Below, one piece after another: positions 1-19,409 of a stretch of DNA of 29,676 nucleotides. The translations under genes and the position numbers were made by a program. Below the pieces are notes generated by a model. That model was given only the letters and a program-made list of their open reading frames with translations. It did not search any database and was not told the origin of the DNA. Location: NCBI GenBank assembly GCA_012513515.1, contig JAAZCA010000001.1, positions 1 through 29,676 of the forward strand, read 5' to 3'. This stretch comes from Myxococcales bacterium. Lineage in GTDB: Bacteria > UBA10199 > 2-02-FULL-44-16 > JAAZCA01. Every line of letters starts with the position of its first letter. Within the stretch, counting starts at the first letter, position 1.

Positions 1-64
1 ATAGGGCATCTCAGAAATGGACTATGCCGATAAGAAATTGGAAGCCCGCACTGAACAGATTCGC
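1..64 (+). repeat. 64-bp terminal direct repeat, left copy (identical to 29613-29676)
   Basis: Bases 1-64 and 29613-29676 are identical and in the same orientation, and both lie inside the IS256-type remnant. The simplest reading is that assembly stopped in a multicopy repeat at both ends. A closed 29.6-kb circle would be an odd carrier for dnaA, gyrB and rpmH. Joining the ends would also leave the element without a matching 8-bp target duplication: CAAAATAA on one flank, GTAAAACC on the other. Confidence 0.9.
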
Positions 65-95
65 CATAGAGTATGGAGTAAACTTTGAATTCTAA
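3..95 (+). pseudogene. IS256-family transposase, C-terminal remnant
   Basis: Read from base 3, the frame gives KWTMPIRNWKPALNRFAI followed by EYGVNFEF and a TAA at 93-95. The K-W-T-M-P-I-R-x-W-x-x-A-L-N-x-F pattern is the typical C-terminal signature of IS256-family (Mutator-type) transposases. The DDE catalytic core is absent, so this is not functional. The same frame at the right end of the window extends a little further upstream (FPSDDSALKLIYLAVN), as expected for this family. Whether a full-length copy exists elsewhere in the genome cannot be seen here. Confidence 0.8.
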
Positions 96-113
96 AATCG
101 CAGTTACACAGAA

Positions 114-2129
114 TTATTTACAGGCTCGTAAAACCGACAACGGCGATCCAATCGAACATATGATATGTCTTCCGGCAAGCTCTCCCATAAATCGCTCGCC
201 CATTTCTTCAACGGAATTAAGTTCATCTTTTTGCAGCACCGACACCTTGTTGCCCACAAGAGGATATCCATTTAGTTTCAGCGCTTCATCGTAGGCTCCG
301 GAAAAAGCAAAGCGCCTGCCTGCGATATAGATTATGTCGGATTCCAATGCGCGTATGTCATGCAAAAATCTCGCCGCACTGTGAACAAAGCCATCCGAAA
401 ATCTCTCGTCATCTATGTCGGCGACAACTACTGGGCTTACCCCGGCCTCCTTCGCCTGCCGCAACCTTTCTAATATCACGGAGGTTTGTTCCTGCCTTAA
501 AACCGCGGGGAGATCTTCAAAATCAAGCCTGTCGATGCCGCCAATGGACTCAAGCTCTCTGGCGAGAAGGACCGGGTCTGTGGTTAAAATTCCATCTCCT
601 ATACCGGCAGCGCCCGGAGGCATATCACCCTGAACATGGATGCGTATGCCATTGCCCCCACCTCTAAGCTTGGAATATCCGTTTAGATGATTGGGAGTAT
701 TATCCATGAAAGCCACATGCCACACCTCCTTATGACTGGCCAAGTACTCCCTAACCATAACCATCTTCTCCGGCTCCTTTTGAGAACCGGAGCTCCAATC
801 TATCTTGGCGCCCTTATGAAAAAGTGGTTCGCTATTTTCATCCCAGAGCCCTACATAGCGAAGCGCGAGCTCGGCAGCGGAAAGCCCGTTAGGCAGGCTA
901 TCATCCTGATCGCTTCTCAACGAAACGTAGACGGTCCTCAATGGAATTCCTTTTTTCTGGAGCCTTCTGCGCAGGAGTTTTACGAGATTGATCGTGCCCC
1001 ATATAGGATTCGCTCCTTCTACCCTCCTCGAAGGATCGAAAAAATGCTTGTCGTGATGACCTTGCGCAGGCGCAACAATCTCTTCGTCAAAAACACCTAT
1101 CTTAGCTAGTATATCTTTGGCATTCCAACCCAAGAGATCTACTCCCAAATCCTCCTTTTCAGAGATGCTCTTTTTTATCTCCGAAGCGCGAGGTCCATCG
1201 TAGCTTGCAAGCCATTCATCGAAAAGTCGCCTGGTAAATCTCCTCACATTGAAAAGGGTTCCGTCTATATCCAAAAACATGGTCGGTATTTTTTTTGCTC
1301 TTTCAAATCCCGTTGTCGCAGACCTCTCAAGCCTCTCCAATACATAGGCCGCGCTGACATTTTCCGTGAAACCGCCTGAAAGCTTCACCTCTGTGGAAGT
1401 GGGCACGCCGAGCTCCGTCTGACCTGGAGCCCTTATCGAAAAATGCGCCACTACGTTATCGTCACCCGATAGGCTTGAAATGTATATCCTGTAAGGTAGG
1501 ACCAGCCTTGCGCCGTTGGGAATTACCAGCATGCGCGCCCTCTGCGCAACCATATCCAGAACTTCGTTATCGCTGACTAGGTCCCTCATGCACGTAGCGA
1601 GCTGCCCTGTCAGCACCAAAGAGCTGGCACGCCATGACTCCATAGCAACTTCCGCTATGAAAAATTCGTCTCGAGGTTTGAAGCGCTGGAGTTCGACCTG
1701 GTGTCTCCCGGTTTCAGGATTGAAAATGAACTGCACCATCGAGTTCTGATTTTTGCCCATCCATCTGCCGACATAAGAAGGAAGGTAATGCTGGGGGTAG
1801 GTGGTGATATCTACCTTACCACCCCTGCTTGTGGCGCGTGGCAACTTTTTATTCCCTAGTTCTAAATTGCCGCTGCTTCTACCTTCCAATATAATCCGAG
1901 AAATCTTCTGCAAAATCTCCTGAAATTTACCCGGGGAATCTATGCTCTCGACATATTCTTTCATCAGAGCGGGATAGGCTGTTACGGCCCATGTCCAATC
2001 CTTCAGCCCTATATCCTCTGAAATGATCCGCTCGGACGCATTGATAAAATTCCGCTCTTCGTCGGAAAGTCCGGCGCCCGCAGATTTGGCCTGGTTATAG
2101 GGAATTATCACTATTGGTCTCAAAGACAT
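114..2129 (-). CDS. HAD-superfamily domain protein, 3' end replaced by IS sequence
   Basis: This is a 671-aa product in its present form. The N-terminal ~280 residues match no family I can name. A HAD-like motif I, FLDIDGT, lies at about residues 285-291, with a motif II candidate (YVSLRSDQ, ~401) and a motif IV candidate (FMDNTPNH, ~474). A second, degenerate HAD-like segment starts near residue 568 (VVADIDDERFSDGF) with YIAGR near 601. The ATG at 2129 is preferred to the GTG at 2171 because GGAGG lies 5 nt upstream. The final residues A-C-K and the stop are encoded by the IS terminal repeat (GAGCCTGTAAATAA), so the native C-terminus, probably the end of the second HAD-like segment, has been lost. 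A phosphatase or nucleotidase role is possible but the substrate is unknown. Confidence 0.7.
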   Translation of the reverse strand: MSLRPIVIIPYNQAKSAGAGLSDEERNFINASERIISEDIGLKDWTWAVTAYPALMKEYVESIDSPGKFQEILQKISRIILEGRSSGNLELGNKKLPRATSRGGKVDITTYPQHYLPSYVGRWMGKNQNSMVQFIFNPETGRHQVELQRFKPRDEFFIAEVAMESWRASSLVLTGQLATCMRDLVSDNEVLDMVAQRARMLVIPNGARLVLPYRIYISSLSGDDNVVAHFSIRAPGQTELGVPTSTEVKLSGGFTENVSAAYVLERLERSATTGFERAKKIPTMFLDIDGTLFNVRRFTRRLFDEWLASYDGPRASEIKKSISEKEDLGVDLLGWNAKDILAKIGVFDEEIVAPAQGHHDKHFFDPSRRVEGANPIWGTINLVKLLRRRLQKKGIPLRTVYVSLRSDQDDSLPNGLSAAELALRYVGLWDENSEPLFHKGAKIDWSSGSQKEPEKMVMVREYLASHKEVWHVAFMDNTPNHLNGYSKLRGGGNGIRIHVQGDMPPGAAGIGDGILTTDPVLLARELESIGGIDRLDFEDLPAVLRQEQTSVILERLRQAKEAGVSPVVVADIDDERFSDGFVHSAARFLHDIRALESDIIYIAGRRFAFSGAYDEALKLNGYPLVGNKVSVLQKDELNSVEEMGERFMGELAGRHIICSIGSPLSVLRACK

Positions 2130-2391
2130 CCGATCCTCCAAGCTATGATTTATGAAAATTATCTCCGGCACGCCCTTATCGGCGCATCGGAAAAAAGGTT
2201 GTGTGCTCCCTTAATGAGTTCCTCCTATTGGTTTCTTTTCTTATTCGACGCGACATCCAACAATCAATAGTTTTTATTCTTTTGACAAATTTTCAGTAAA
2301 GTGGCGAAAAATATCCGCTTGATATCCAAGCAAGACAGACAACTTTTTAAAAAAAATGCCGATAACTATAGCGGAGGAGGAGAAAGTCCAT

Positions 2392-2556
2392 ATGCTGCCA
2401 CCTGAGGTGCTGGACAAGATAAGACGGGAAAGAGAGGAGAGAGAGCGTCCCTCTTTCAAAATTCCTCTCTATCTACCTGAAATAGTTGATGAAGATTTCT
2501 ATCAGGAGGATGAAAAGTCCGTGATATCCAGAGTGGTGGTAATAGATCTCATGTAA
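2392..2556 (+). CDS. Small conserved-looking hypothetical protein, 54 aa
   Basis: The protein starts MLPPEVLDKIRREREERER, a charged probable helix, followed by a proline/acidic middle and a hydrophobic C-terminal strand (SRVVVIDLM). The frame stays open upstream to an ATG at 2356. I choose 2392 because GGAGGAGGAG (2373-2382) lies 9 nt before it, whereas 2356 follows a run of A with no ribosome site. A TTGACA at 2282-2287 could be a -35 element, but no convincing -10 follows at 16-18 nt. A strong intrinsic terminator begins 16 nt after the stop. It is the only + strand gene before gatE. I vaguely recall similar short proteins with a charged N-terminus and a VVxID tail in deltaproteobacteria/myxobacteria, but have no functional assignment. 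Confidence 0.65.
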   Translation: MLPPEVLDKIRREREERERPSFKIPLYLPEIVDEDFYQEDEKSVISRVVVIDLM

Positions 2557-2571
2557 ACATCGTAAAAATAC

Positions 2572-2609
2572 AAAAAACGGCAAAATCTTATCGATTTTGC
2601 CGTTTTTTT
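2572..2609. terminator. Bidirectional intrinsic terminator
   Basis: A perfect 10-bp stem, CGGCAAAATC / GATTTTGCCG (2578-2587 and 2593-2602), encloses the 5-nt loop TTATC. It is followed by seven T on the + strand and preceded by six A. It can therefore end transcription of the small + gene and, in the other direction, of the long minus-strand run ending with hppA (stop at 2693). Confidence 0.92.
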
Positions 2610-2692
2610 ATTATTTGATCAAATTAAGGAACCTCGACCATGGACAATTGACCATCGACCAAAACATCAAGAAGCTAGAATTCGGAGGTTAC

Positions 2693-4768
2693 TTAGATCA
2701 AAAGTGGCGCAATAACGAGGGCAAGCACGCTCATAAGTTTAATCAAAATGTTGAGCGATGGACCGGCGGTATCCTTGAAAGGATCGCCAACGGTATCGCC
2801 GGTGACAGCGGCTGAATGCCTCAGGCTCCCCTTCCCTGTATTTTCGCCAGGATTTTGGGGTTCCCCCTCGATCTGTTTTTTGGCGTTATCCCACGCCCCT
2901 CCAGAGTTTGCCATAAATATCGCCATCAAGACGCCAGTCACCGTAACGCCGGCCAAAAGACCGCCAAGGGCTGCCAAGTCCCCCCATACCCACTTAGATA
3001 CAAAGCCCACTACGACCGGAGCAAGGATGGCCAAAACCCCCGGCAAGACCATCTGACGTATCGCCGCTGATGTTGAGATATCGACGCACTTTGCATAGTC
3101 AGCCCTAGCATTTCCCTCCATGAGTCCGGGAATTCCGCGAAACTGTCTTCTTACCTCCTCTATCATTCTATTGGCCGCCTTGCTGACCGCCTTCATCGCC
3201 ATAGCGCTGAAAAGGAAGGGCAACATCCCACCTATCAAAAGTCCGGCAATTACATCGGGACGAGTGATATCTATCGTCTTGAGTCCTGCCTGCTCACGGA
3301 AAGCCGCAAAGAGCGAAAGTGCTGTAAGCGCTGCTGACCCTATCGCAAAGCCCTTTCCAATGGCAGCCGTAGTATTGCCCACGGAGTCGAGTAGATCGGT
3401 TCTTTTCCTTACCTCTTCACCAAGTCCGCTCATCTGAGCGATGCCGCCGGAATTATCCGCAATGGGGCCATAGGCATCCACAGAGAGCTGGATGCCTGTA
3501 GTCGAAAGCATTCCAAACGCAGCTATCGCTATTCCGTAGAGCCCCGCGAAATAATAGCTCGCAATTATCGCGACAACTATCGATGTAAGCGGCAGTGCGG
3601 TGGAACGCATACCTACAGCTATTCCAGATATTATGTTTGTGGCTGATCCTGTTCTGGATGAAACGACTATCTCTCTGACCGGAGGCTTGTCCATCGCACA
3701 GTAGTATTCCGTAAACAGCCCAACCGCTACTCCAGCCAGAAGCCCGGCAACCACAGCACCCCAAATTCTGAATGCGCTGACTACGCTGCCCTGAAACACG
3801 AAGCCTTCCGAGGCCATCGCATTGATTACAAAATACGCCGCAATCACAAAAATTACCGCAGCGAGAAATGACCCGGTATTTAAAGCGCGCTGCGGATTGC
3901 CGCCCTCGCTGGTCTTAACAAAAAATGTCCCTATTATGGATGCGATGATTCCTATCGCGGCAAGGACCACGGGAAGAGAAACCGCCACAAATCCAGCGGA
4001 TACACCAAGCACCATAGCGCTTACCAACGCACCTACGTATGATTCAAATAAATCAGCGCCCATGCCGCAGACATCGCCTACGTTGTCTCCGACATTGTCG
4101 GCTATCGTCGCGGGATTTCTTGGATCATCCTCCGGAATATTTTTTTCCACCTTGCCGACCAAGTCAGCTCCGACATCGGCGGCCTTCGTGTATATACCCC
4201 CTCCGACCCTCGCAAACAGGGCTATCGAAGATGCGCCAAAAGAAAATCCGACGAGTATAGGCAGAACCGTATCTTTCAAAGTATCGGGGTGTGAGCCGAA
4301 GCAATAAATAAGAATTAAAAAGACTACTCCCAACCCGAGAACTCCCAGCCCAACTACGCTCATTCCCATCACCGCACCACCGCGAAAGGCGATGCCAAGT
4401 GCCTTGTTAAGGCTTTCCCTCGCAGCGTTGGCGGTTCTGACGTTTGCCTTGGTAGCAACACGCATCCCTAAATATCCGGCGAGGGCGGAGCAGAAAGCGC
4501 CTATCATGAATGATACGGCCACCAGGCGCACAGCACCCTTGTTTATAATCGCAAAGATAAAGGCGACGATTACAACGAATACGGCGAGTGTTTTGTACTC
4601 TCTGGCTATGAAGGCCATGGCCCCCTCACGTATAGCGCGGGCGACCTCCTTCATTCTTTCAGTGCCTGGATCTGCTGATGAAACTTGATGAGTCAGAAAT
4701 GCCGCGTACGCCAGGGCGCAAATAGCGCCGATAACGGCCATCCACACAACAAAGATGCGCTCTGCCAT
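2693..4768 (-). CDS. hppA: Membrane-bound K+-dependent pyrophosphatase, probably Na+-pumping
   Basis: This protein hydrolyses cytoplasmic pyrophosphate and couples it to cation export across the inner membrane. It is 691 aa, normal for the family, with about 16 hydrophobic segments. Family signatures are visible: [11 protein letters not shown] near residue 198, DNVGDNVGD near 224, and a C-terminal [20 protein letters not shown] region. [10 protein letters not shown] near 464 has Ala and Gly at the two positions that mark K+-dependent enzymes (Lys and Thr mark K+-independent ones). ADLFESY near 238 places Glu where the Thermotoga Na+-PPase has it, although some H+ pumps share this. The ATG at 4768 is preferred to 4774 because AGGAGG sits 9 nt upstream of 4768 and only 3 nt from 4774. 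It lies 47 nt after the V-ATPase K gene and is probably the last gene of that transcript. Confidence 0.95.
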
Positions 4769-4815
4769 AGACATCTACCTCCTTTGCTGGTGATAGATCC
4801 ATAACCCGCAAAATA

Positions 4816-5283: not shown

Positions 5284-7038
5284 TTATATCTTTTCGAGAG
5301 GCTTGTACGGCGCGCCCGACAGCTGCACGCATTTTGGAAAGGCCTCGACAGCGTGCAGTCTGGCAGGGTGAACCAAAGCCCCCATAACCCCCATGGCGAA
5401 ATTAAATGAATGGCCCAGGAGAAGGACGATTATCGATAGCAGGATTCCTACCACAGGAACCGCGCCTCTGACGTCCACCGCAAGCACGTTGATGACAGAA
5501 GCTATCGCACCCGAGGCCACTCCAAGCCCGAAAAGTCTGGCATAGGACATCACATCCCCCAGAAGTCCGGTGAGGCCGTAAACTCCCCAAATCCCAGCGC
5601 CAAGCCTCTTGAGGGGATTTTTGGCGTCCGATGAAAAAGTTAATATCAATAATATCCCGGCCCCTGCGATGTACGGCCATATTGAGTATTTGATCATCGC
5701 GAGCGCGCCGCCCCACAAGACGAATAAGGTACCCGCTTTTATCATCCTTTCGGAAAAATTATTCGACGATATTATGGAAATCATAAGCGCTATGCTGATA
5801 TGCAGAACCCCGGCCACGATAGAAATTTTAAACAGCAGCATGGGATCTCCAACGTCCGGGGCCACATCGACCAGTATCCACTCCCTCTGAGCAAATGGAA
5901 TTCCGAAAATTGATCCTGTGGCGAGACCCCATACGACGGTGGTAAGCCCTAACAAAATGGTCATATTCGACACGAACCTGATAGCGGGAATTTTTGCCGA
6001 CAACAATTTCTTGGCTACGGCACCTATCAAAATCATGATCGCGCCGTACCCGGCATCGGAAAGACATATCCCAAAAAATAGCATCATCGACGGGGCAAAA
6101 AAGAGCGCCGGATCTATCCCTCCGTATTTCGGAAAACCGAGAATGTGCAAAAGAGGTTCGAATACACTGGCGAGCCATGAATTTTTCGTCTTGATCGGAG
6201 GGCTTTCATCCTCCATGGGGTCCCTCGCCTTCATGAAAACGCCCGGGAATGATTTGTGCACCATTTCTGCGACATGTTCGATGTTGTCGGCAGGGACCCA
6301 CCCGGCAAAGGCGGAGACAGACTCATCTTCAAATGCCCTGCCCAGCGTTTCATAAAAATCGCGCTCTTCTGTAAGGGCGGCATTCTTTTTCCTATAGCTT
6401 GGCAAATGCACCGTGGCTGAATCAATCTGCGCTGAAATTGATTCGAGGCGTCGCCTCAAATCGGAGAGCTCCTCCTTGAGTGCTGAAAGGCTTGACTTAG
6501 GAACCTCTCGTTCGACAGCGAATGGAATCTTCACCGGACCTTTTAATGAGAATGTTGCGAAGCATACATCATCATGCCTGCTTATCACATGAATATGCAC
6601 TTCCGATTTCTTGGCATACTCCTCAAATTCCTTCTTTGGCGCACCCCATAACTGCAATGACACCCCGCTGCCGGATAGATTCCCAACATCTTCCGGATCA
6701 AAATCTCCAAGGCAGGCCTGTTTTTCTATTTCCCTCTCGACTTTGGCAATGCCATCGATGAATTTCTTTTCATCCGAAAGCCATGATTCAACATCCCAAA
6801 TGCTGGGTAAAATCGCCGAGTCAGATATATGATTTTTTACATTCCTATCCGAGAGTGACTTGATGACTGTATTTTGGACATGGAGTTTGTGCTCCAGATT
6901 TTTTAGCTGCTCGCTTTCGGTTGCCCTTTTGAGATGCTCAGGGTGGAGGACTCCGATATCCTGAAGGCCGCGCAAAACGGCCTCCGACTCGCGAACATGC
7001 GAGAGGAACAGCACATATTTCATCGCCACTATCGCCAT
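5284..7038 (-). CDS. atpI: V/A-type ATPase subunit I (membrane stator, a-subunit homologue)
   Basis: The 584-aa stator subunit carries the ion half-channels at the rotor interface. The N-terminal ~300 residues are soluble and partly coiled coil (for example LKEELSDLRRRLESISAQID near 190). The C-terminal part has about seven hydrophobic segments, including a DAGYGAIMILIGAVAKKLL region, LLGDVMSYARLFGLGVASGAI, and a final GHSFNFAMGVMGALVHPARLH segment, all typical of NtpI/AtpI. The ATG follows the subunit D stop by 2 nt without a clear ribosome site, so translational coupling is likely. It is a little shorter than many archaeal homologues, which is common in bacterial members. Confidence 0.92.
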   Translation of the reverse strand: MAIVAMKYVLFLSHVRESEAVLRGLQDIGVLHPEHLKRATESEQLKNLEHKLHVQNTVIKSLSDRNVKNHISDSAILPSIWDVESWLSDEKKFIDGIAKVEREIEKQACLGDFDPEDVGNLSGSGVSLQLWGAPKKEFEEYAKKSEVHIHVISRHDDVCFATFSLKGPVKIPFAVEREVPKSSLSALKEELSDLRRRLESISAQIDSATVHLPSYRKKNAALTEERDFYETLGRAFEDESVSAFAGWVPADNIEHVAEMVHKSFPGVFMKARDPMEDESPPIKTKNSWLASVFEPLLHILGFPKYGGIDPALFFAPSMMLFFGICLSDAGYGAIMILIGAVAKKLLSAKIPAIRFVSNMTILLGLTTVVWGLATGSIFGIPFAQREWILVDVAPDVGDPMLLFKISIVAGVLHISIALMISIISSNNFSERMIKAGTLFVLWGGALAMIKYSIWPYIAGAGILLILTFSSDAKNPLKRLGAGIWGVYGLTGLLGDVMSYARLFGLGVASGAIASVINVLAVDVRGAVPVVGILLSIIVLLLGHSFNFAMGVMGALVHPARLHAVEAFPKCVQLSGAPYKPLEKI

Positions 7039-7040
7039 AT

Positions 7041-7634
7041 TTATGCCGTTTCGAACGTGCTCTTTTCGGCGAGCATTTCCGCCTGCGCTATTTTGGCCAC
7101 CATGACCGTGGCCCGCTCGTTGTCCTCGAGCCTGCCTTTTATGTATCTGATCTCGCCCTTGTACATCGGTATGAGCCTCTTCTCAAACAGGTTAATCCTC
7201 TGTGTAGTGACCGAAAGCTCCTCGCCGAGGAGTTCAAGCCCCTTTTTCATGGCGGCGTATTTTTCATTGGCCTCAAGAAGTTCTTTCCTCAGATTTACAA
7301 ACAGATCAAAAGAGGGGGGCGTCATAAGGACGGAATATCCCCGCACCTCGAAATCGACGCTCTCAACGGAACTTATAATTACGCCCGCTATGTTGAGCGT
7401 CGCAAGCGTCTTATCCTTGATTAAGACGAGAAAATCTATCTCCGGATGCGGATTTTGTTCGTAGTGATCCGAAAGCTTCTGACAGAGGCTTTCAAGCTCT
7501 GCCATCTTTTCTTCCCATGCCAGTATCTCACGATTGAGCTGCTTTCTGCGCAGGTCGAGCGTCGGCACGGCTCTGGAAAGCCTCTCCGCACGAAGCTTGG
7601 ACATCCTCATTGCGCCTTTGGTCACAGTCGGCAT
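7041..7634 (-). CDS. atpD: V/A-type ATPase subunit D (central rotor shaft)
   Basis: The 197-aa protein is predicted to be a long two-helix coiled coil that forms the rotor axle through the A3B3 head. The start, MPTVTKGAMRMSKLRAERLS, and the helical C-terminus (RINLFEKRLIPMYKGEIRYI) fit the family, whose usual length is about 200-220 aa. AAGGA lies 9 nt before the ATG. The start falls 5 nt after the subunit B stop. It belongs to the A-B-D-I-K order seen in chlamydial and spirochaetal clusters. Confidence 0.93.
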   Translation of the reverse strand: MPTVTKGAMRMSKLRAERLSRAVPTLDLRRKQLNREILAWEEKMAELESLCQKLSDHYEQNPHPEIDFLVLIKDKTLATLNIAGVIISSVESVDFEVRGYSVLMTPPSFDLFVNLRKELLEANEKYAAMKKGLELLGEELSVTTQRINLFEKRLIPMYKGEIRYIKGRLEDNERATVMVAKIAQAEMLAEKSTFETA

Positions 7635-7639
7635 TCAGA

Positions 7640-8944
7640 TTATTCCTTATAAAACTTATCGAGTATCTCTTTCTTTATCCTGAGAACCCTTCTTGGAAGT
7701 ATCTTTATCAGTTCCCATCCGAGGTCCAGAGTTTGTTCCAAAGTCAGATCCTGGTCGGCAGGTAAAAATCTTCTTTCAAATTCATCGGCGAACTTCAGAT
7801 AGGCGATGTCAACTTCGTCTGTGATGGAAAAGCCCATCTCTTTCTGTTCGCGCAACGAGAGAGCGTTCGCATATGCCGAAACGCATGCATCCATGATGGA
7901 GCCGTGGTCGGAACGCGTTTCCTTTCCAACGACGAGTCCCTTCAACCTAGAAAGACATTTCATTATGACGAACTTTCCCTTTTCAACGGGAAGCTGCCCC
8001 TCCGTTATGTAGCCGGTAAGGTTTGCGACTATGTGCGAGAGGTCATTGTCCGGGACGGAGTTCACTCCTATGATCGTCACCGATCCGCGCTCTCCTCCAA
8101 AATTAACGGCGCGTTCGTATATCCTGGCGAGCTTGCTATAGAGATCTCCCGGATATCCGTCGCGGCTGGGAATTTTGCCCTGCGCGTTGGAAACCTCCAT
8201 CAGCGCATCGGCATACCTAAGCATGTCCGCTATCACCACCAGGACGTGCTGGCCTAGTAACGCGAGTTTTTCCGCATAAGCGCAGCATATGTGCGGAACG
8301 TTAAGCCTCTCGATAGGGGATTCGCTCCCGAGATTTACGACCATCACCATTCTTTCTGCCGCCTCCTCAAGGACTTCCCTGAAGAAGATGTATTCTTCGT
8401 TGAGCAGCCCCAGCCCTCCGAAGACCACGCTGAAATTCTCCTGACCGGCAACTCTTGCCTGGCGTATTATCCTGGCGACTATGTTGTTGATATCTTCGCC
8501 CGGCAATTTGTAGATCGGTATCTTCTGCCCTCTTACGATTGTATTTGCTCCGTCTATTGAAGGGATGCCTGTCTCTATGTAGCCTTGCCCCATCGCCCTT
8601 CGGGAGGGATTGACTACCGGCCCTTCGACCGGAATCATCTCGCCCTTGACTGCAGGGCGCCCGTCCCTCGGCTTTCCGATTCCGTCGAATATCCTTCCCA
8701 TTATCAGCTTGGAATCGAATGGAAGTTCGAACGGCTTGCCGGTGAATTCGGTCCTCTGAGTGGTTACGACTCCGAGGCTCCCCTGAAGCGACTGAAGAAA
8801 GACCGTGTCCCCTTGAATCTTTACGACCTTTGCCGAACCAAAACCCGGAAGGTGAGCCTCCTCTCCCATTCCGACGCCGGTGACGCCGCGGACCTGGAGG
8901 ATAGGCCCCTCAATATTTTCTATATCGCAGTAGACGACTTTCAC
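7640..8944 (-). CDS. atpB: V/A-type ATPase subunit B (non-catalytic nucleotide-binding head subunit)
   Basis: The 434-aa protein alternates with subunit A in the head. Recognisable segments include MGRIFDGIGKPRDG, PSRRAMGQGYIETGIPSIDG, and ESPIERLNVPHICCAYAEKL. The canonical P-loop is absent, as expected for B (KLPGEDINNIVARIIRQA occupies that place). The start is a GTG overlapping the subunit A stop by 3 nt (GTGA), with GAGG 7 nt upstream. This indicates coupled translation with subunit A. Confidence 0.96.
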   Translation of the reverse strand: MKVVYCDIENIEGPILQVRGVTGVGMGEEAHLPGFGSAKVVKIQGDTVFLQSLQGSLGVVTTQRTEFTGKPFELPFDSKLIMGRIFDGIGKPRDGRPAVKGEMIPVEGPVVNPSRRAMGQGYIETGIPSIDGANTIVRGQKIPIYKLPGEDINNIVARIIRQARVAGQENFSVVFGGLGLLNEEYIFFREVLEEAAERMVMVVNLGSESPIERLNVPHICCAYAEKLALLGQHVLVVIADMLRYADALMEVSNAQGKIPSRDGYPGDLYSKLARIYERAVNFGGERGSVTIIGVNSVPDNDLSHIVANLTGYITEGQLPVEKGKFVIMKCLSRLKGLVVGKETRSDHGSIMDACVSAYANALSLREQKEMGFSITDEVDIAYLKFADEFERRFLPADQDLTLEQTLDLGWELIKILPRRVLRIKKEILDKFYKE

Positions 8945-10740
8945 CTCGCCACCTCGCCTTCCCGAACATCAGCCGCAGGTGCGGAAGCGCTCGTGATCGA
9001 TTCTATGATCCTGTCATATCCAGCCTTGTAGTCGCTGGCGTAGTTGGCCTGAACGATCTCAAAGAGAAGGTCTTCCTGCCGCCTTCTCATCGACCTCTTG
9101 TCCTCAAGCGGAAAGATGTCCAAAATATGCACCAGAAATCTCATCATGTCGTAATGCCGCTCCAGTGAACTCGCCCTGTCATTCTCGTCGAATGTGTTCT
9201 GATTCAGATATCCCTTCTGGACGATTTCGCCGAGGAGATACCTGCGATATTCCTCATCGCCGATTCCCTTTTCGCCCAGGATTTCCATCTGATCTCTTAT
9301 GCGCTCTCCCTCAACGACCGAGGACTTCAGCGCGGAAACAAACTTCAGCCACAGCGGAAGATCTTTCTGCTCGAATCGCCTCTGCAAAACTTCTACGGAC
9401 GTGTCGAGATATTTCGAGTGGCATTCTAGAGGATCGAATGCGGGGAAAAGACGAGCGGCCGCCCTCTTTCTCGAAAGTATCAGGGCAACCTTAGCTGTTT
9501 GAATTGCCGCCTGAGTCGGCGGATCTCCGGAGATGTCTCCTCCGTCTGGGGAAAGCGCGGCGATGATAGTCATACTCCCGCGACGCTCCGGCCCCGAGCC
9601 CAGGCATGCTATAGATCCGGCCCGTTCAAACCAGCGGGTCAGATATGCTCCTATGTAAGCGGGGAACGCCTGAGGACCTGGAATCTCGCCAAGCCTTCCG
9701 CTGATCTCCCTCATTCCCTGCGCCTGGCGGGAAAGGCTGTCGGTGAGAAGAAGAACATCGTATCCCATGTCGCGAAAATATTCGCCGACAGTTGCACCGA
9801 CAAGAATTGATCCCTCTCTGGCCGCCACCGGCATTGCGCTAGTATTGACGAATAAAACGGTTCTTTCTACGAGAGGCCTTCCCGTTTCCGGATCTATCAG
9901 TTTCGGGAATTCGTGCATCAACTCTACCATTTCGCCTGCGCGCTCGCCGCAACCTACGTATATCACAATCTTGACCTTGCTATGCCTCGCAAGATCGTGT
10001 TGGCACATCGTCTTTCCGGTTCCAAAATCTCCCGGCACACACGCCGTCCCTCCAAGCATGACGGGATTGAATGCGTCTATTATCCTTATTCCGGTATTCA
10101 GCACATCGGAAAGCTGTAGCCTGCTTTTTACGGGGCGTGGCATCCTGATCGGCCATCTCTGCAACATCTTGAGTTCCGAGATCTTGCCGTCATCTGAAAC
10201 CAGCTCTGCAATTTTATCTTCGATGACGAATTCGCCTGCGGCAATCCCCCTGATTGTTCCGCTTGGAGAATTGGCTGGCACCATTATCTTGTGAACAACG
10301 AGTTCAGTCTCCTTCACCTCGCCGATGATATCTCCAGCTAAGACGCGGGCGCCATCTTCGACCAGCGGTTTAAAGCTCCACTTCTTCTTTTTATCGAGCG
10401 GAGGGACGATCACGCCCTGAGGAAGAAAATCGCCGTAACCTGAAAGCCTGTTGCCAAGCCCGTCCAGCGTGGCACCTATCAGCCCAGGGCCCAGCTCCAT
10501 CTCTATAAGATGCCCCGTCAGTATGACGTTGTCGCCGACCATAAGACCCGTGGTATCCTCATAGCACTGAAGGTCGGCGAGGTTTCCCCTGACCCTGATA
10601 ACCTCGCCGCGCAGGTGGGCCGAACCTATGAAGGCCTCTTCGTTCATCATACAGGGGACGCCTTGACTTCCATGGCCGTGAAGGCTAACGACAACCAGGT
10701 TGTCATCCACCATGACTATTTTTACTATTCGCTCTTTCAA
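8941..10740 (-). CDS. atpA: V/A-type ATPase catalytic subunit A
   Basis: The 599-aa catalytic subunit hydrolyses or makes ATP. The N-terminal barrel (VKIVMVDDNLVVV) is followed by the A-specific non-homologous region, then the P-loop GDFGTGKT at residues 237-244. Further on are CGERAGEMVELMHEFPKL near 268 and PDGGDISGDPPTQ. The P-loop has Asp where many homologues have Pro (GPFGxGKT). The start is TTG at 10740. It gives the expected family N-terminus, but the nearby GAGAGGGG is close to the start codon, so the exact start is moderately secure. It begins 17 nt after the DUF2764 gene and overlaps subunit B. Confidence 0.96.
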   Translation of the reverse strand: MKERIVKIVMVDDNLVVVSLHGHGSQGVPCMMNEEAFIGSAHLRGEVIRVRGNLADLQCYEDTTGLMVGDNVILTGHLIEMELGPGLIGATLDGLGNRLSGYGDFLPQGVIVPPLDKKKKWSFKPLVEDGARVLAGDIIGEVKETELVVHKIMVPANSPSGTIRGIAAGEFVIEDKIAELVSDDGKISELKMLQRWPIRMPRPVKSRLQLSDVLNTGIRIIDAFNPVMLGGTACVPGDFGTGKTMCQHDLARHSKVKIVIYVGCGERAGEMVELMHEFPKLIDPETGRPLVERTVLFVNTSAMPVAAREGSILVGATVGEYFRDMGYDVLLLTDSLSRQAQGMREISGRLGEIPGPQAFPAYIGAYLTRWFERAGSIACLGSGPERRGSMTIIAALSPDGGDISGDPPTQAAIQTAKVALILSRKRAAARLFPAFDPLECHSKYLDTSVEVLQRRFEQKDLPLWLKFVSALKSSVVEGERIRDQMEILGEKGIGDEEYRRYLLGEIVQKGYLNQNTFDENDRASSLERHYDMMRFLVHILDIFPLEDKRSMRRRQEDLLFEIVQANYASDYKAGYDRIIESITSASAPAADVREGEVAR

Positions 10741-10757
10741 AGCCCCTCTCCATGTGT

Positions 10758-11450
10758 CTAGGTCAAATAGGAAAATTCCCTGTAAGTCATATACTGAGTG
10801 ACGTAGCTCATAATCTCGTCAAACGTAAATGAATACTCGGGAGCAAGCTCCTTCGCTTTTTTTATGCGAAGAGAAGCGACCATTGCATCAATATCCTTCC
10901 ACGCGTTGAATCCGCGTTCGAATTTAGAAGAGAGCCCTTCCGCAAGCGACTTGAATTCATGTGACCATACAAAACCTTCATCGTCAAAACGTGACTCATC
11001 GCCCTTGGCATACTGGAAAAGGGAAGCTCTTCTATCCGCCATGGCATTTCTCTGCGCCATCTCCCATCTCGAGTACGATACCACGAATGAGCTTCTGCAC
11101 TGTGAAGCCGTATGAATAAGTCGTGAGTAGTACTCCAACCACACGCTTTGAAAACCTCTTGCGATATTTTGATCGGACTTTTCTAGCAGTGTGGATATCC
11201 AAGTGGGACGTTTAGATTTATCAATGACGGACGCCTCGTCTATGACGGCAACTCCGTTCGGGTCGATCCCTAGAGACTCCATCTCCATGGCCCTGATATC
11301 GCACCTGTAAAAAAGGGCTCGGGCCACTTTCTCAACCTTTCCCCCTTCAGCGCAGACGAGCTGCCAAAGCTCAGCCGGACTGATGGCGACCTTGTCGCCG
11401 ATTTTTTCAGGAAGCAGAGGCAGCGCTGAGAATAGATATTCGTACGCCAT
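10758..11450 (-). CDS. DUF2764 family V-ATPase-associated protein (in the subunit C position)
   Basis: The 230-aa soluble protein begins MAYEYLFSALPLLPEKIGDK and is rich in aromatic and charged residues with no membrane segment. It matches the DUF2764 proteins that sit between atpE and atpA in chlamydial, spirochaetal and Bacteroidetes V-ATPase operons. From its position, and because no ordinary subunit C is present, it likely acts as the C-like socket between rotor ring and shaft; that is inference. AAGGA lies 5 nt before the ATG, and the start is 1 nt after the atpE stop. Confidence 0.82.
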   Translation of the reverse strand: MAYEYLFSALPLLPEKIGDKVAISPAELWQLVCAEGGKVEKVARALFYRCDIRAMEMESLGIDPNGVAVIDEASVIDKSKRPTWISTLLEKSDQNIARGFQSVWLEYYSRLIHTASQCRSSFVVSYSRWEMAQRNAMADRRASLFQYAKGDESRFDDEGFVWSHEFKSLAEGLSSKFERGFNAWKDIDAMVASLRIKKAKELAPEYSFTFDEIMSYVTQYMTYREFSYLT

Positions 11451-11451
11451 A

Positions 11452-12105
11452 TCAGTCCTTGGGAAATTCCCTTTTGTCGAGTAGGTAGTGGAAGCGCTCG
11501 GTTATAAAAGGTTTGAGGGCATCTACTATCGCATCCGCATCGGTGATGCGCAATCCTCCTCGGTCATCCACGGAAATTTTAAAACCGAACAGGCTTAATT
11601 CAGAATGAAGCGTTATGGCGCTGTCTATTCGCTCGCGCATCATATTAATCCACTCGCCTATGAATTTTCCCCGAAGCTCGTCCGGAACTGTCAGGCTGAT
11701 ATGCTTTGCGCCCTGTGCCCCTTCGCCCTTTAGAAAGACATCCATCATTTTGCTTATCAGTTCCTTCAAAAAATCAGCGTCCATCATCACACCCTTAACC
11801 TTCTCACGCAGCGGATTGATGGCGATGAGATCCTCCAGCTCACTCTTCGCCTTCAGCTTGAAATCGCGGAGGGCAAGCTCGAGTTGAGTTTCAAGACGCT
11901 CCATCGTATCGCTGGATTTTTTGGCAGCCGCATTCATGATCAGTTCTGCTTCGGTTCTGGCCTCGTATATTATTCTGGCGGACTCCACCTTCGCATCGTT
12001 CAGAACTTTCTCGGCTTCCTCGCGACCACGCGCGATGCCGTCTTTTTTCAAAACATCGATTAGACCAGCAAGATCATTACTTGGGACTTGAGCTTTGTTT
12101 TCCAC
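11452..12105 (-). CDS. atpE: V/A-type ATPase subunit E (peripheral stalk)
   Basis: The stator-stalk subunit has a long N-terminal helix (LIDVLKKDGIARGREEAEKV onward, then a heptad-like Ala/Glu/Lys-rich stretch) and a globular C-terminal domain, as in the family. The frame is open to an ATG at 12147 (231 aa). I prefer the GTG at 12105 (217 aa) because AAGGGGG lies 8 nt upstream and homologues start about 10-20 residues before this helix; the ATG at 12147 lacks a clear ribosome site. It is the first ATPase gene, 50 nt after the bactofilin stop. No separate subunit G/H or F gene is seen in the cluster. Confidence 0.88.
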   Translation of the reverse strand: MENKAQVPSNDLAGLIDVLKKDGIARGREEAEKVLNDAKVESARIIYEARTEAELIMNAAAKKSSDTMERLETQLELALRDFKLKAKSELEDLIAINPLREKVKGVMMDADFLKELISKMMDVFLKGEGAQGAKHISLTVPDELRGKFIGEWINMMRERIDSAITLHSELSLFGFKISVDDRGGLRITDADAIVDALKPFITERFHYLLDKREFPKD

Positions 12106-12155
12106 TTTTGAATCCCCCTTACAGAAGGCCGTTTCAATTTCAAACATACTACATC

Positions 12156-16150: not shown

Positions 16151-17533
16151 CTATTTCTTGTAGGTGGAGAGAAATCTTTCAACTTCGGGTATTCCTCCCT
16201 GATAGACTAGATATCCGTTATGCGGTTCGCGCTCGGTAATCTCATTCGCTATCGGGGTAAGCATAATCCTCCTCACCTCATCAAGATTGCGCGTCTGGCC
16301 CAGAGTCCAGCATAGCTTCATATACGCGGCCTCCGGCAGCATATTCTCGCACGGGATGACGCCAAGTTCGAGAAGGTAGCGTCCGGTATCATAAACATTC
16401 ATGTGAACGTACCCCCACAGCGTCTGAACGGTCATAACTACAGCGATCCCCTTGTCAACAGCGCGCTTCAGCGCCGGGTTTAGTGCCGAATTGACGTGTC
16501 CGAGGCCGGTGCCGGCGATGACTATTCCGTGATATCCTCTATCGATAAGGCTGTCGACCATATCAGGAGCCATCCCGGGGTAATAGTACAGTATCGAAAC
16601 GCGCTCATCGTAATGAGGATGAATCTTCACTTCGCGATCATTGCGCCTGACTTTGTGCTCCCTCAATGGAACTATCTTGTCCGGCCAAACCATGGCGATA
16701 GGAACGTCGCTCAAGGTTCTGAAGGTGGAGCGATAACTGGAATGCATCTTTCTCACGCGAGTGCCCATGTGGAGCAACCCGTAATCGTCTGAGGTTGGGC
16801 CAAACATGCAGACCATAATCTCTGCCAGATTTGAGTGTGCAGCTGTGGAAACTGCGTTGAGAAGATTTCTTGCAGCATCCGAACTCGGTCGGTCGCTTGA
16901 CCGCTGCGAACCAACGATAACGATAGGAACCGGAGTGTCCTGAACCATGTAGGATAGAATCGATGCCGTGTGGTGCATGGTGTCAGTGCCATGACCGATC
17001 ACGATGCCATCGACTCCTTTCTCGATGAGCTTTCCTATCTCTTCAGCCAGGATCTTGTACTGCTCAGGTCCCATATTTTCAGAGAACACTCCAAAGAGCT
17101 TTACCGTGCTCAGATTGCAGATATCGGCCAGCTCCGGAACGGCACCATAAAGTTCACCTGGAGAAAATGCCGGCACGACAGCTCCTGTCGTATAGTCCAG
17201 CCTTGAAGCTATCGTCCCGCCAGTGCCGAGGAGAGTAACGTTCTTCTTGCGCTTGTCGTACGGAAATTCTTTTTCTGGAATCGCGTAATACCCCTCGCGG
17301 TGGCCGATTCGTTTGATGGACTTGATCGAATCTACATGGACGCCGGTGTTGTAGCCGCTCTCCATCTTGATGACGATATGTTCAGCATCTTCCGTCTTGG
17401 AACGAGGAAGTATCAGACCCGAAAAAATCCCCTTTGGAGTGTCGATTTCGATCCGATCCCAAACCGCCACGTCATGCTTCTTTAGAATGGCCAGCCCCGG
17501 ATCCCTGTAACCCTTGTATTTATCTTCGCTCAT
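16151..17533 (-). CDS. gatD: Archaeal-type Glu-tRNA(Gln) amidotransferase subunit D
   Basis: The 460-aa asparaginase-like subunit releases ammonia from glutamine or asparagine and feeds it to GatE, which converts Glu-tRNA(Gln) to Gln-tRNA(Gln). An N-terminal small barrel (~22-75, ...HIVIKMESGYNTG) distinguishes GatD from plain asparaginases. The catalytic set is intact: T107 in GTGGTIAS, T183 and D184 in HGTDTM, and K262 in TRVRKM. The spacing of 76/1/78 is very close to that of the Methanothermobacter enzyme (T101, T177, D178, K254, from memory). GSQRSSDRPSSDAA near 208 is GatD-typical. The ATG at 17533 has AGAAGG 9 nt upstream; a GTG at 17551 is less likely. It is divergent from gatE. This enzyme is classically archaeal, so its presence in a bacterial origin region is unusual. 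Confidence 0.93.
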   Translation of the reverse strand: MSEDKYKGYRDPGLAILKKHDVAVWDRIEIDTPKGIFSGLILPRSKTEDAEHIVIKMESGYNTGVHVDSIKSIKRIGHREGYYAIPEKEFPYDKRKKNVTLLGTGGTIASRLDYTTGAVVPAFSPGELYGAVPELADICNLSTVKLFGVFSENMGPEQYKILAEEIGKLIEKGVDGIVIGHGTDTMHHTASILSYMVQDTPVPIVIVGSQRSSDRPSSDAARNLLNAVSTAAHSNLAEIMVCMFGPTSDDYGLLHMGTRVRKMHSSYRSTFRTLSDVPIAMVWPDKIVPLREHKVRRNDREVKIHPHYDERVSILYYYPGMAPDMVDSLIDRGYHGIVIAGTGLGHVNSALNPALKRAVDKGIAVVMTVQTLWGYVHMNVYDTGRYLLELGVIPCENMLPEAAYMKLCWTLGQTRNLDEVRRIMLTPIANEITEREPHNGYLVYQGGIPEVERFLSTYKK

Positions 17534-17681
17534 GATGGGAAGCCTTCTCACTTGGAAAAGGTCCTGTCAACCGGCTTCGCCATGCACTCGACAGCATCCA
17601 TTTTCCCAACGCATCGACTAAAAGATTCGGCCCTATTTTTTCTTGCCATCTCAAAGGGTTATATCCTATGACAGGGCCGCG

Positions 17682-19409
17682 ATGACGGAAGGGCTCAAAA
17701 AATTAGGATTCATGTGCGGCGTTGAAGTCCATCAACAGCTGCTGACCCAAAAAAAGCTTTTCTGCCGCTGTCCTGCCGGCCTCTACAGCGACCGTCATCA
17801 TGCCGAGGTGCTGCGCCATATGAGGCCGACACTCTCTGAAATGGGAGTCTACGATGCCTGCGCCTTGATGGAGTTCAAAACTAAAAAAGAAATAATCTAC
17901 CTCCTGAATAAAAACTCTGTCTGCACGTACGACATGGACGACACTCCGCCTTTTCCGATCAACCGCGAGGCGCTAGACATCGCAATTGAAATCGCACTTC
18001 TCGTCGGATGTTCCATAGTCGATGAAATACACATCGTGAGAAAACAATATCTCGACGGATCGATACCGACTGGATTTCAACGAACGGCGATCATCGGCAT
18101 AAACGGGAGCATCCCATTCGAAGGAAAAAATATCGGAGTGCGTCAGATCTCCATTGAGGAGGACTCCTGTCGAGAGGTTCAAGATACGGGTCACCAAATA
18201 AAATTTAGAACAGACAGATTGGGCATGCCGCTGATAGAGGTGGTTACCGAACCCTGCTTCGAAACGCCCGAAGAGGCCGGAAGGGCAGTCAAACACATAG
18301 GAAGACTTCTGCGCGCAACCGGCAAAGTCCGCCGCGGGATCGGATCTGTAAGACAGGATGTAAATGTCTCTATCAAGGGTGGTTCGCGGGTGGAAATCAA
18401 GGGGGTTCCAAGATATCAGCTCATACCCGCCTTGACCGCCACAGAGGCTATGCGGCAGAAAGCCCTGCTTGAAATACGCGACGAACTAAGGCGCAGAAAG
18501 ATAACCGCTGAAAATCTTGAAACCTGGGAGAGCGATCTCACCGAGGATTTGAAATCCACCTGTTCGCCTCATCTGAAACAGGCCATCGAGAGCGGCCACA
18601 GGATTAGAGGAATAAGGCTCAACAGGCTTGCGGGAATACTGAATCATCCGACGCAACCCGGCAGGATGTTTTCATCAGAATTATCAGGAAGGGTGAGGGT
18701 TATCGCCTGCCTCGATGGAATCCCAAACATCTATCATACCGACAATTACCCTGAATATCAGCGCAGCCACATCGACAGAAGGGTCATACGCCTTGCACTG
18801 AATCTGAAGGAAGAGGATGTTGGCATAATCGCCTGGGGGCCTGAGGCAGACACCATAACGGCGACGACTGAAATCAAGAACAGGATTCTCGATGCGATCG
18901 AGGGAGTGCCACATGAAACCAGGCAGCACATGCGGGAAGGACTCACCGATTTTGAAAGGATTCTGCCAGGCGCAGACAGGATGTATCCCGATACCGATCA
19001 CCCGCCAATCAGAATAACTCCGGAACACGTCGCGAAAATAAAAGAGGACCTGCCCGAAGCAACATATGAAGTTGAAACAAGGCTGGCGTCCTACGGGATT
19101 CCTACGGACTCTATAGAGTTCCTAGCCCTGTCGGACAAAGTCGCACTGATCGACCATCTCCACAAAGCCGGAAAGAATATGAAGCTCGTCGGAAGAATTC
19201 TTGGACAGGCTGCAAGAAGCCTGCAACGGCAGGGGATAGACCTGTCCGCCATGAAAAATACTAGATGGACGGAACTGATAGAACAGTGCCACTCGAAAAA
19301 AATTCAAGCGAAGCATTTCGAAAATCTCATCATAAATGCTGCGGCCTATCCTGAACGAACGATAGCCGAGCTGGCGGATGATCTGGTAGCGGTGAAAGCT
19401 GAGGTCTAG
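17682..19409 (+). CDS. gatE: Archaeal-type Glu-tRNA(Gln) amidotransferase subunit E
   Basis: The 575-aa subunit activates Glu-tRNA(Gln) with ATP and transfers ammonia from GatD. The GatB/E kinase core runs ~1-290: CGVEVHQQL near 12, KLFCRCP near 25, DRLGMPLIEVVTEP near 178, and GSVRQDVNVSI near 221. It is GatE rather than GatB because a GAD domain (as in bacterial AspRS) is inserted at about 295-410 (RLAGILNHPTQPGRMFSSEL, GIIAWGPEAD), followed by PGADRMYPDTDHPP and a helical YqeY-like tail. The ATG at 17682 is preferred to a TTG at 17643; AGGG lies 6 nt upstream. It is divergent from gatD (148-nt gap) and ends 18 nt from the convergent PDGLE gene. It is slightly shorter than typical archaeal GatE (~620 aa). 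Confidence 0.93.
   Translation: MTEGLKKLGFMCGVEVHQQLLTQKKLFCRCPAGLYSDRHHAEVLRHMRPTLSEMGVYDACALMEFKTKKEIIYLLNKNSVCTYDMDDTPPFPINREALDIAIEIALLVGCSIVDEIHIVRKQYLDGSIPTGFQRTAIIGINGSIPFEGKNIGVRQISIEEDSCREVQDTGHQIKFRTDRLGMPLIEVVTEPCFETPEEAGRAVKHIGRLLRATGKVRRGIGSVRQDVNVSIKGGSRVEIKGVPRYQLIPALTATEAMRQKALLEIRDELRRRKITAENLETWESDLTEDLKSTCSPHLKQAIESGHRIRGIRLNRLAGILNHPTQPGRMFSSELSGRVRVIACLDGIPNIYHTDNYPEYQRSHIDRRVIRLALNLKEEDVGIIAWGPEADTITATTEIKNRILDAIEGVPHETRQHMREGLTDFERILPGADRMYPDTDHPPIRITPEHVAKIKEDLPEATYEVETRLASYGIPTDSIEFLALSDKVALIDHLHKAGKNMKLVGRILGQAARSLQRQGIDLSAMKNTRWTELIEQCHSKKIQAKHFENLIINAAAYPERTIAELADDLVAVKAEV

Follow-up and report, generated by a model that had tools for sequence, protein, structure and literature searches.

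Reviews place the two-subunit amidotransferase GatDE in archaea only (PMC9499178, PMC8007984). What, then, does a gatD-gatE pair do beside a bacterial origin of replication, and where did it come from? We address these questions for a stretch of 29,676 nucleotides from a Myxococcales bacterium (assembly GCA_012513515.1, contig JAAZCA010000001.1), the whole of which we call the window. An earlier note, made from the letters of this DNA, had described a complete archaeal-type GatDE and had proposed that the lineage either relies for its Gln-tRNA on an enzyme taken over from archaea or has a dual system. The argument concerns the following features, numbered from the first letter of the window:

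16151 to 17533, minus strand: gatD, the glutaminase subunit, read from an ATG, with GatD_N and asparaginase-like domains.
17534 to 17681, no strand: the divergent intergenic gap between gatD and gatE, 148 nt as measured from the ATG starts.
17682 to 19409, plus strand: gatE, an ATP-dependent amidotransferase subunit of the GatB/GatE type, read from an ATG and assigned by sequence to the bacterial GatE branch.
18507 to 18902, plus strand: the GAD-type (AspRS-like) insertion of GatE, residues 289-420 (VIA-align Z 10.5-13.5).
19032 to 19409, plus strand: the shortened C-terminal helical region of GatE, in which the final YqeY-type helices are absent.

Both genes are intact, as the earlier note had held. 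In profile searches GatD passes its curated family (NF003217, 513 bits, cut-off 310) and matches TIGR02153 at 507 bits. A Pfam search finds the GatD_N domain (PF18195, 5.7e-14), and the best solved relative is archaeal (PDB 1zq1_A, 1.5e-122). The catalytic Thr/Thr/Asp/Lys set named earlier is fully kept in the alignment as T113, T189, D190, and K268 (numbering of the 466-aa frame). A conserved stretch, NGYLVYQGGIPEVE, extends the C-terminus of bacterial GatD; archaeal GatD, where aligned, has no counterpart of it. Type I L-asparaginases share the catalytic residues, and GatD also scores above the cut-off of their model TIGR00519 (384 bits against 260.5). Unlike them, it has GatD_N and is found near gatE, at 65 of the best 80 of the loci surveyed below; a free-standing asparaginase is ruled out by GatD_N, by the adjacent gatE, and by far higher scores to the GatD models.

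GatE passes its curated family as well (NF003107, 535 bits, cut-off 456) and matches PF02934 at 2.6e-54; among solved structures, the archaeal GatDE complexes 1zq1 (1zq1_C, 1e-104) and 2d6f come closest. Its best score of 159 bits falls far short of the 338 that a GatB model requires, and the identification as the GatB of a GatCAB complex was rejected. An AlphaFold2 model (mean pLDDT 90) has the cradle fold of the family, aligning in VIA-align with 2d6f_D at Z 37.5 and with 1zq1_C at Z 33.9. Residues 289-420 of the model resemble the insertion domain of bacterial and mitochondrial AspRS (Z 10.5-13.5); the GAD insertion that the earlier note had reported is thus present, despite the lack of any match to the Pfam GAD model in the window GatE. 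Twelve residues that bacterial GatE has in common with both archaeal GatE and GatB are kept in the window protein: E28, H30, R133, K134, E172, E173, D174, R237, D239, N241, E251, and K253.

The pair therefore invites comparison with 2 known systems. With the archaeal enzymes of Pyrococcus abyssi (1zq1) and Methanothermobacter thermautotrophicus (2d6f) it shares 2 subunits, a GatD built of GatD_N and an asparaginase-like domain, the catalytic T/T/D/K set, the GatE cradle fold, the AspRS-like insertion, and the active-site motifs. It differs from them in sequence (GatD 45-47% identical; GatE 30-35% by structural alignment), in its separate branch with about 36 branch-specific GatE positions, in the C-terminal extension of GatD, in the shortened GatE tail of the window's order, in a tRNA-Gln of bacterial type, and in the coexistence of GatCAB. 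With bacterial GatCAB the likeness lies in the catalytic fold and active-site residues shared by GatB and the window GatE, and bacterial GatE agrees with GatB rather than with archaeal GatE at Y136, P142, and D181. Unlike GatE, GatB has no AspRS-like insertion in the alignment, and its partners are GatA and GatC; the genome that holds the window encodes a separate GatB, on another contig than GatE.

The C-terminus of GatE, whose shortening the earlier note had missed, departs from the canonical form. The window protein ends at position 564 of a 630-position profile, with about 60 C-terminal residues gone. It has 136 residues after the MYPDTD motif, as compared with 131-137 across family f1, 163 in family f2, where the C-terminus differs, and approximately 183-211 in other bacterial GatE, counted only on contigs that do not cut the gene. 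PF02637 matches 5 of 9 bacterial GatE sampled, and the window GatE is not among these 5. It thus lacks the YqeY-type tRNA-binding tail of canonical archaeal GatDE, whereas the GatB of the same genome retains a full YqeY domain. The tail of GatB and GatE is known from structures to help tRNA binding. Given this role, its loss suggests altered substrate recognition; it could also mean weaker tRNA binding and lowered function.

How widespread are such genes among bacteria? A pattern scan of genome contigs returned at least 588 stretches, at least 543 of which encode GatE relatives; we examined the best 80 of these, a sample skewed to window-like sequences. Their record names include Acidobacteriota, Ignavibacteria, Bacteroidota, Planctomycetota, Myxococcota, Gemmatimonadota, KSB1, Zixibacteria, and others. 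The usual order at these 80 loci is gatE followed by gatD, and ORF clustering revealed no recurrent partner besides these 2 genes; the other clusters were apparent overlapping or antisense frames of gatE and gatD, and small groups. A survey of 60 relatives of the window genome placed full GatE in f1 and f2 (same order), in f21 (same class), and in 3 genomes outside the class; the 4 f3 genomes sampled lack it. The earlier description of GatDE as archaeal thus agrees with the reviews, but is contradicted by genome data. A search of papers outside subscription journals turned up no account of bacterial GatDE, and priority is uncertain. One further bacterial-type GatDE (L087, 140-3659) comes from a contig that binning assigned to a Thermoplasmata archaeon.

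We built GatE trees with GatB as outgroup; they hold 3 archaeal GatE, of which 1 is partial (a haloarchaeal plasmid copy), together with the archaeal-like sequence L009, and the GatE root is unsure. In these trees the window GatE groups with bacterial GatE rather than as an ordinary GatB, and a constrained clade of the window lineage with archaeal GatE (the 3 archaeal sequences and L009) is rejected (p-AU 0.0105). At approximately 36 positions, bacterial GatE is nearly invariant and every archaeal GatE sampled has another residue. Judged by sequence, the window GatE is a member of a distinct bacterial branch that spans many phyla. Since archaeal GatE sequences are few and the root is unsure, an ancient transfer may lie at the base of this branch. 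The L009 locus itself (59-3342) comes from a bacterial genome that is 82% complete. Its gatD-gatE pair is archaeal-like and falls with archaeal GatE, apart from the bacterial branch, which may reflect an independent transfer or faulty binning. On a plasmid of Natrinema thermotolerans, an unannotated gatE (L159, 3001-4667) loses its reading frame at about residue 322.

The bacterial oriC neighborhood recognized in the earlier note has the same arrangement in related genomes. The gene is a near neighbor of yidC in G001, G002, G003, and G004, and of dnaA as well where the contig extends so far; this position of the pair is maintained across f1 and f2. Further, cbiM is close by in G003 and G004, and in G002 gatD is followed, just as it is in the window, by rsmG, parA, and parB. 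GC and GC3 of gatD and gatE match those of the adjacent genes. The divergent layout is as first described, with a 148-nt gap between ATG starts; a consensus scan of this gap detected no sigma-70-like promoter. In G001 (L160, 9264-11374) the layout differs from that in the window, and other ORFs, over about 2.2 kb, stand between gatE and gatD. The window also carries, close to oriC, a V/A-type ATPase operon (5284-12147) and a proton-pumping pyrophosphatase (2693-4774).

We then turn to the supply of Gln-tRNA in the organism itself. Its genome (1.79 Mb, 42 contigs, 99.3% complete) yielded every gene that the earlier note had proposed to search for, except glnS. A complete gatCAB, which that note had missed, is present as an operon of gatC, gatA, and gatB on contig C32; there is 1 bacterial GluRS, plus AspRS and AsnRS, and no GlnRS was found in this 99.3% complete assembly. 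The dual-system option thus stands, with a complete gatCAB alongside GatDE and no GlnRS, and GatDE is not the only candidate Glu-tRNA-Gln amidotransferase of the cell. According to reviews, archaeal GatDE recognizes the D-loop and A1-U72 of tRNA-Gln (PMC9499178), and amidotransferases recognize tRNA-Gln through U1-A72 (PMC9976931). Both tRNA-Gln genes of the genome (anticodons TTG and CTG) have the bacterial pair U1-A72, and G73; the A1-U72 partner of canonical archaeal GatDE, for which a check had been suggested, is absent.

GatE-bearing genomes combine these routes in several ways; outside the organism's own genome, GatCAB was inferred from GatB. Among 51 distinct genomes, 26 have GlnRS only, 13 have GlnRS and GatB, 9 have GatB only, and 3 have neither, such that 48 of the 51 carry at least 1 of the 2. 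AsnRS occurs in 53 of 56 genomes searched. The genomes with GlnRS have mostly 1 GluRS and 1 GlnRS, surplus matches being mainly short or split; an additional full-length GluRS/GlnRS match in G071 is a possible exception. Neither GlnRS nor GatB was seen in G004 (83% complete), G043 (97%), and G062 (completeness not known), and GatDE could therefore be the only Gln-tRNA route in some bacteria, although gaps in assembly could account for all 3; the family of G043 consists of 2 genomes, 1 with GlnRS and 1 without. Within f1, GlnRS without GatB is seen in G002, and the reverse in G000, G001, and G003. Yet GatDE is kept in G000, G001, and G002, as is GatE in G003, where the contig ends; retention of GatDE therefore does not track the Gln-tRNA route. 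In G002 (L168, 358-3496), which is without GatB, GlnRS adjoins GluRS, which suggests that GlnRS took over from GatCAB in this genome.

Taken together, we consider it probable that GatDE is an active, vertically inherited bacterial amidotransferase, and not the main supplier of Gln-tRNA; it would serve in an auxiliary or rescue capacity, or act on another substrate. In the proposed mechanism, GatD would free ammonia from glutamine, and GatE would activate a side-chain carboxylate with ATP and then amidate it. By homology, the target of GatE may be the gamma-carboxylate of tRNA-bound glutamate. In the window's organism, the single GluRS together with GatCAB would provide the main supply of Gln-tRNA, and GatDE would amidate Glu-tRNA in an auxiliary or rescue role, or take a different substrate. 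We infer the activity of GatDE, the primacy of GatCAB, and the substrate; gene integrity, the preserved active sites, the fold of GatE, the synteny, the presence of GatCAB beside GatDE, the lack of GlnRS, the bacterial type of tRNA-Gln, and the lost tail are computational results.

The first of these 2 branches is a true dual system, in which GatDE and GatCAB both amidate Glu-tRNA-Gln and GatDE is a standing backup or corrects errors; in other genomes, it would rescue tRNA-Gln mischarged by GluRS. We give this a little under an even chance. It would retain the chemistry of archaeal GatDE, in keeping with the conserved active sites. GlnRS is absent from the organism's own genome, and therefore Glu-tRNA-Gln must arise in its cells; the 9 GatE-bearing genomes with GatB and without GlnRS point the same way. 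Yet GatDE is also kept in the 26 of 51 genomes with GlnRS, no GatB, and mostly 1 GluRS, where little Glu-tRNA-Gln is therefore expected. The near-invariant positions that set bacterial GatE apart from all archaeal GatE sampled, a tRNA-Gln without the pair reported for archaeal GatDE recognition, and the loss of the GatE tail in the window's order weigh against it as well. We advance, tentatively and with less than even confidence, a further reading: bacterial GatDE would be a repurposed amidotransferase family, found in many phyla, that acts on something other than the Glu-tRNA-Gln of bulk protein synthesis; the window's order would have gone furthest, having dropped the end of the GatE tail.

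An improbable arrangement has GatDE as the principal source of Gln-tRNA in this organism, with GatCAB retained for another purpose. Both enzymes are present and GlnRS is absent, as this would require; but AsnRS is present, and there is therefore no obvious need for GatCAB in Asn-tRNA formation. Moreover, it is GatB that has the whole YqeY domain and GatE that lost the end of its own, and within f1 GlnRS replaces the missing GatB though GatDE remains.

We regard as very unlikely that a redundant GatDE is a decaying relic, losing function in the window's order. The GatE tail, of which about 60 residues are gone in f1 and which is altered in f2, could be read in this manner. However, the readable f1 and f2 genes keep open frames and active sites. 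In comparisons with G001 and G002, GatD is 83-84% identical and GatE 69-71%; across f1 genera the corresponding values are 58-67% for DnaA, 55-61% for YidC, 69-73% for GluRS, and 65-68% for GatB (G001, G003). Decay is therefore unlikely, as the catalytic parts are conserved and the identity of GatD between genera exceeds that of DnaA, YidC, GatB, and GluRS.

Least credible of all is a recent lateral gain of archaeal GatDE, or a contig joining archaeal and bacterial DNA: the closest characterized proteins are archaeal and reviews restrict GatDE to archaea, but the oriC-linked locus shared by related genomes, the matching base composition, and the GatE tree contradict both, and these, with the U1-A72 of tRNA-Gln, also weigh against the earlier proposal of an acquired archaeal enzyme that makes Gln-tRNA.

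The view that GatDE occurs only in archaea serves the arguments of reviews on early tRNA-dependent amidation, and a large bacterial branch alters this picture. The persistence of GatDE beside GlnRS or GatCAB raises a testable question: what does bacterial GatDE amidate?
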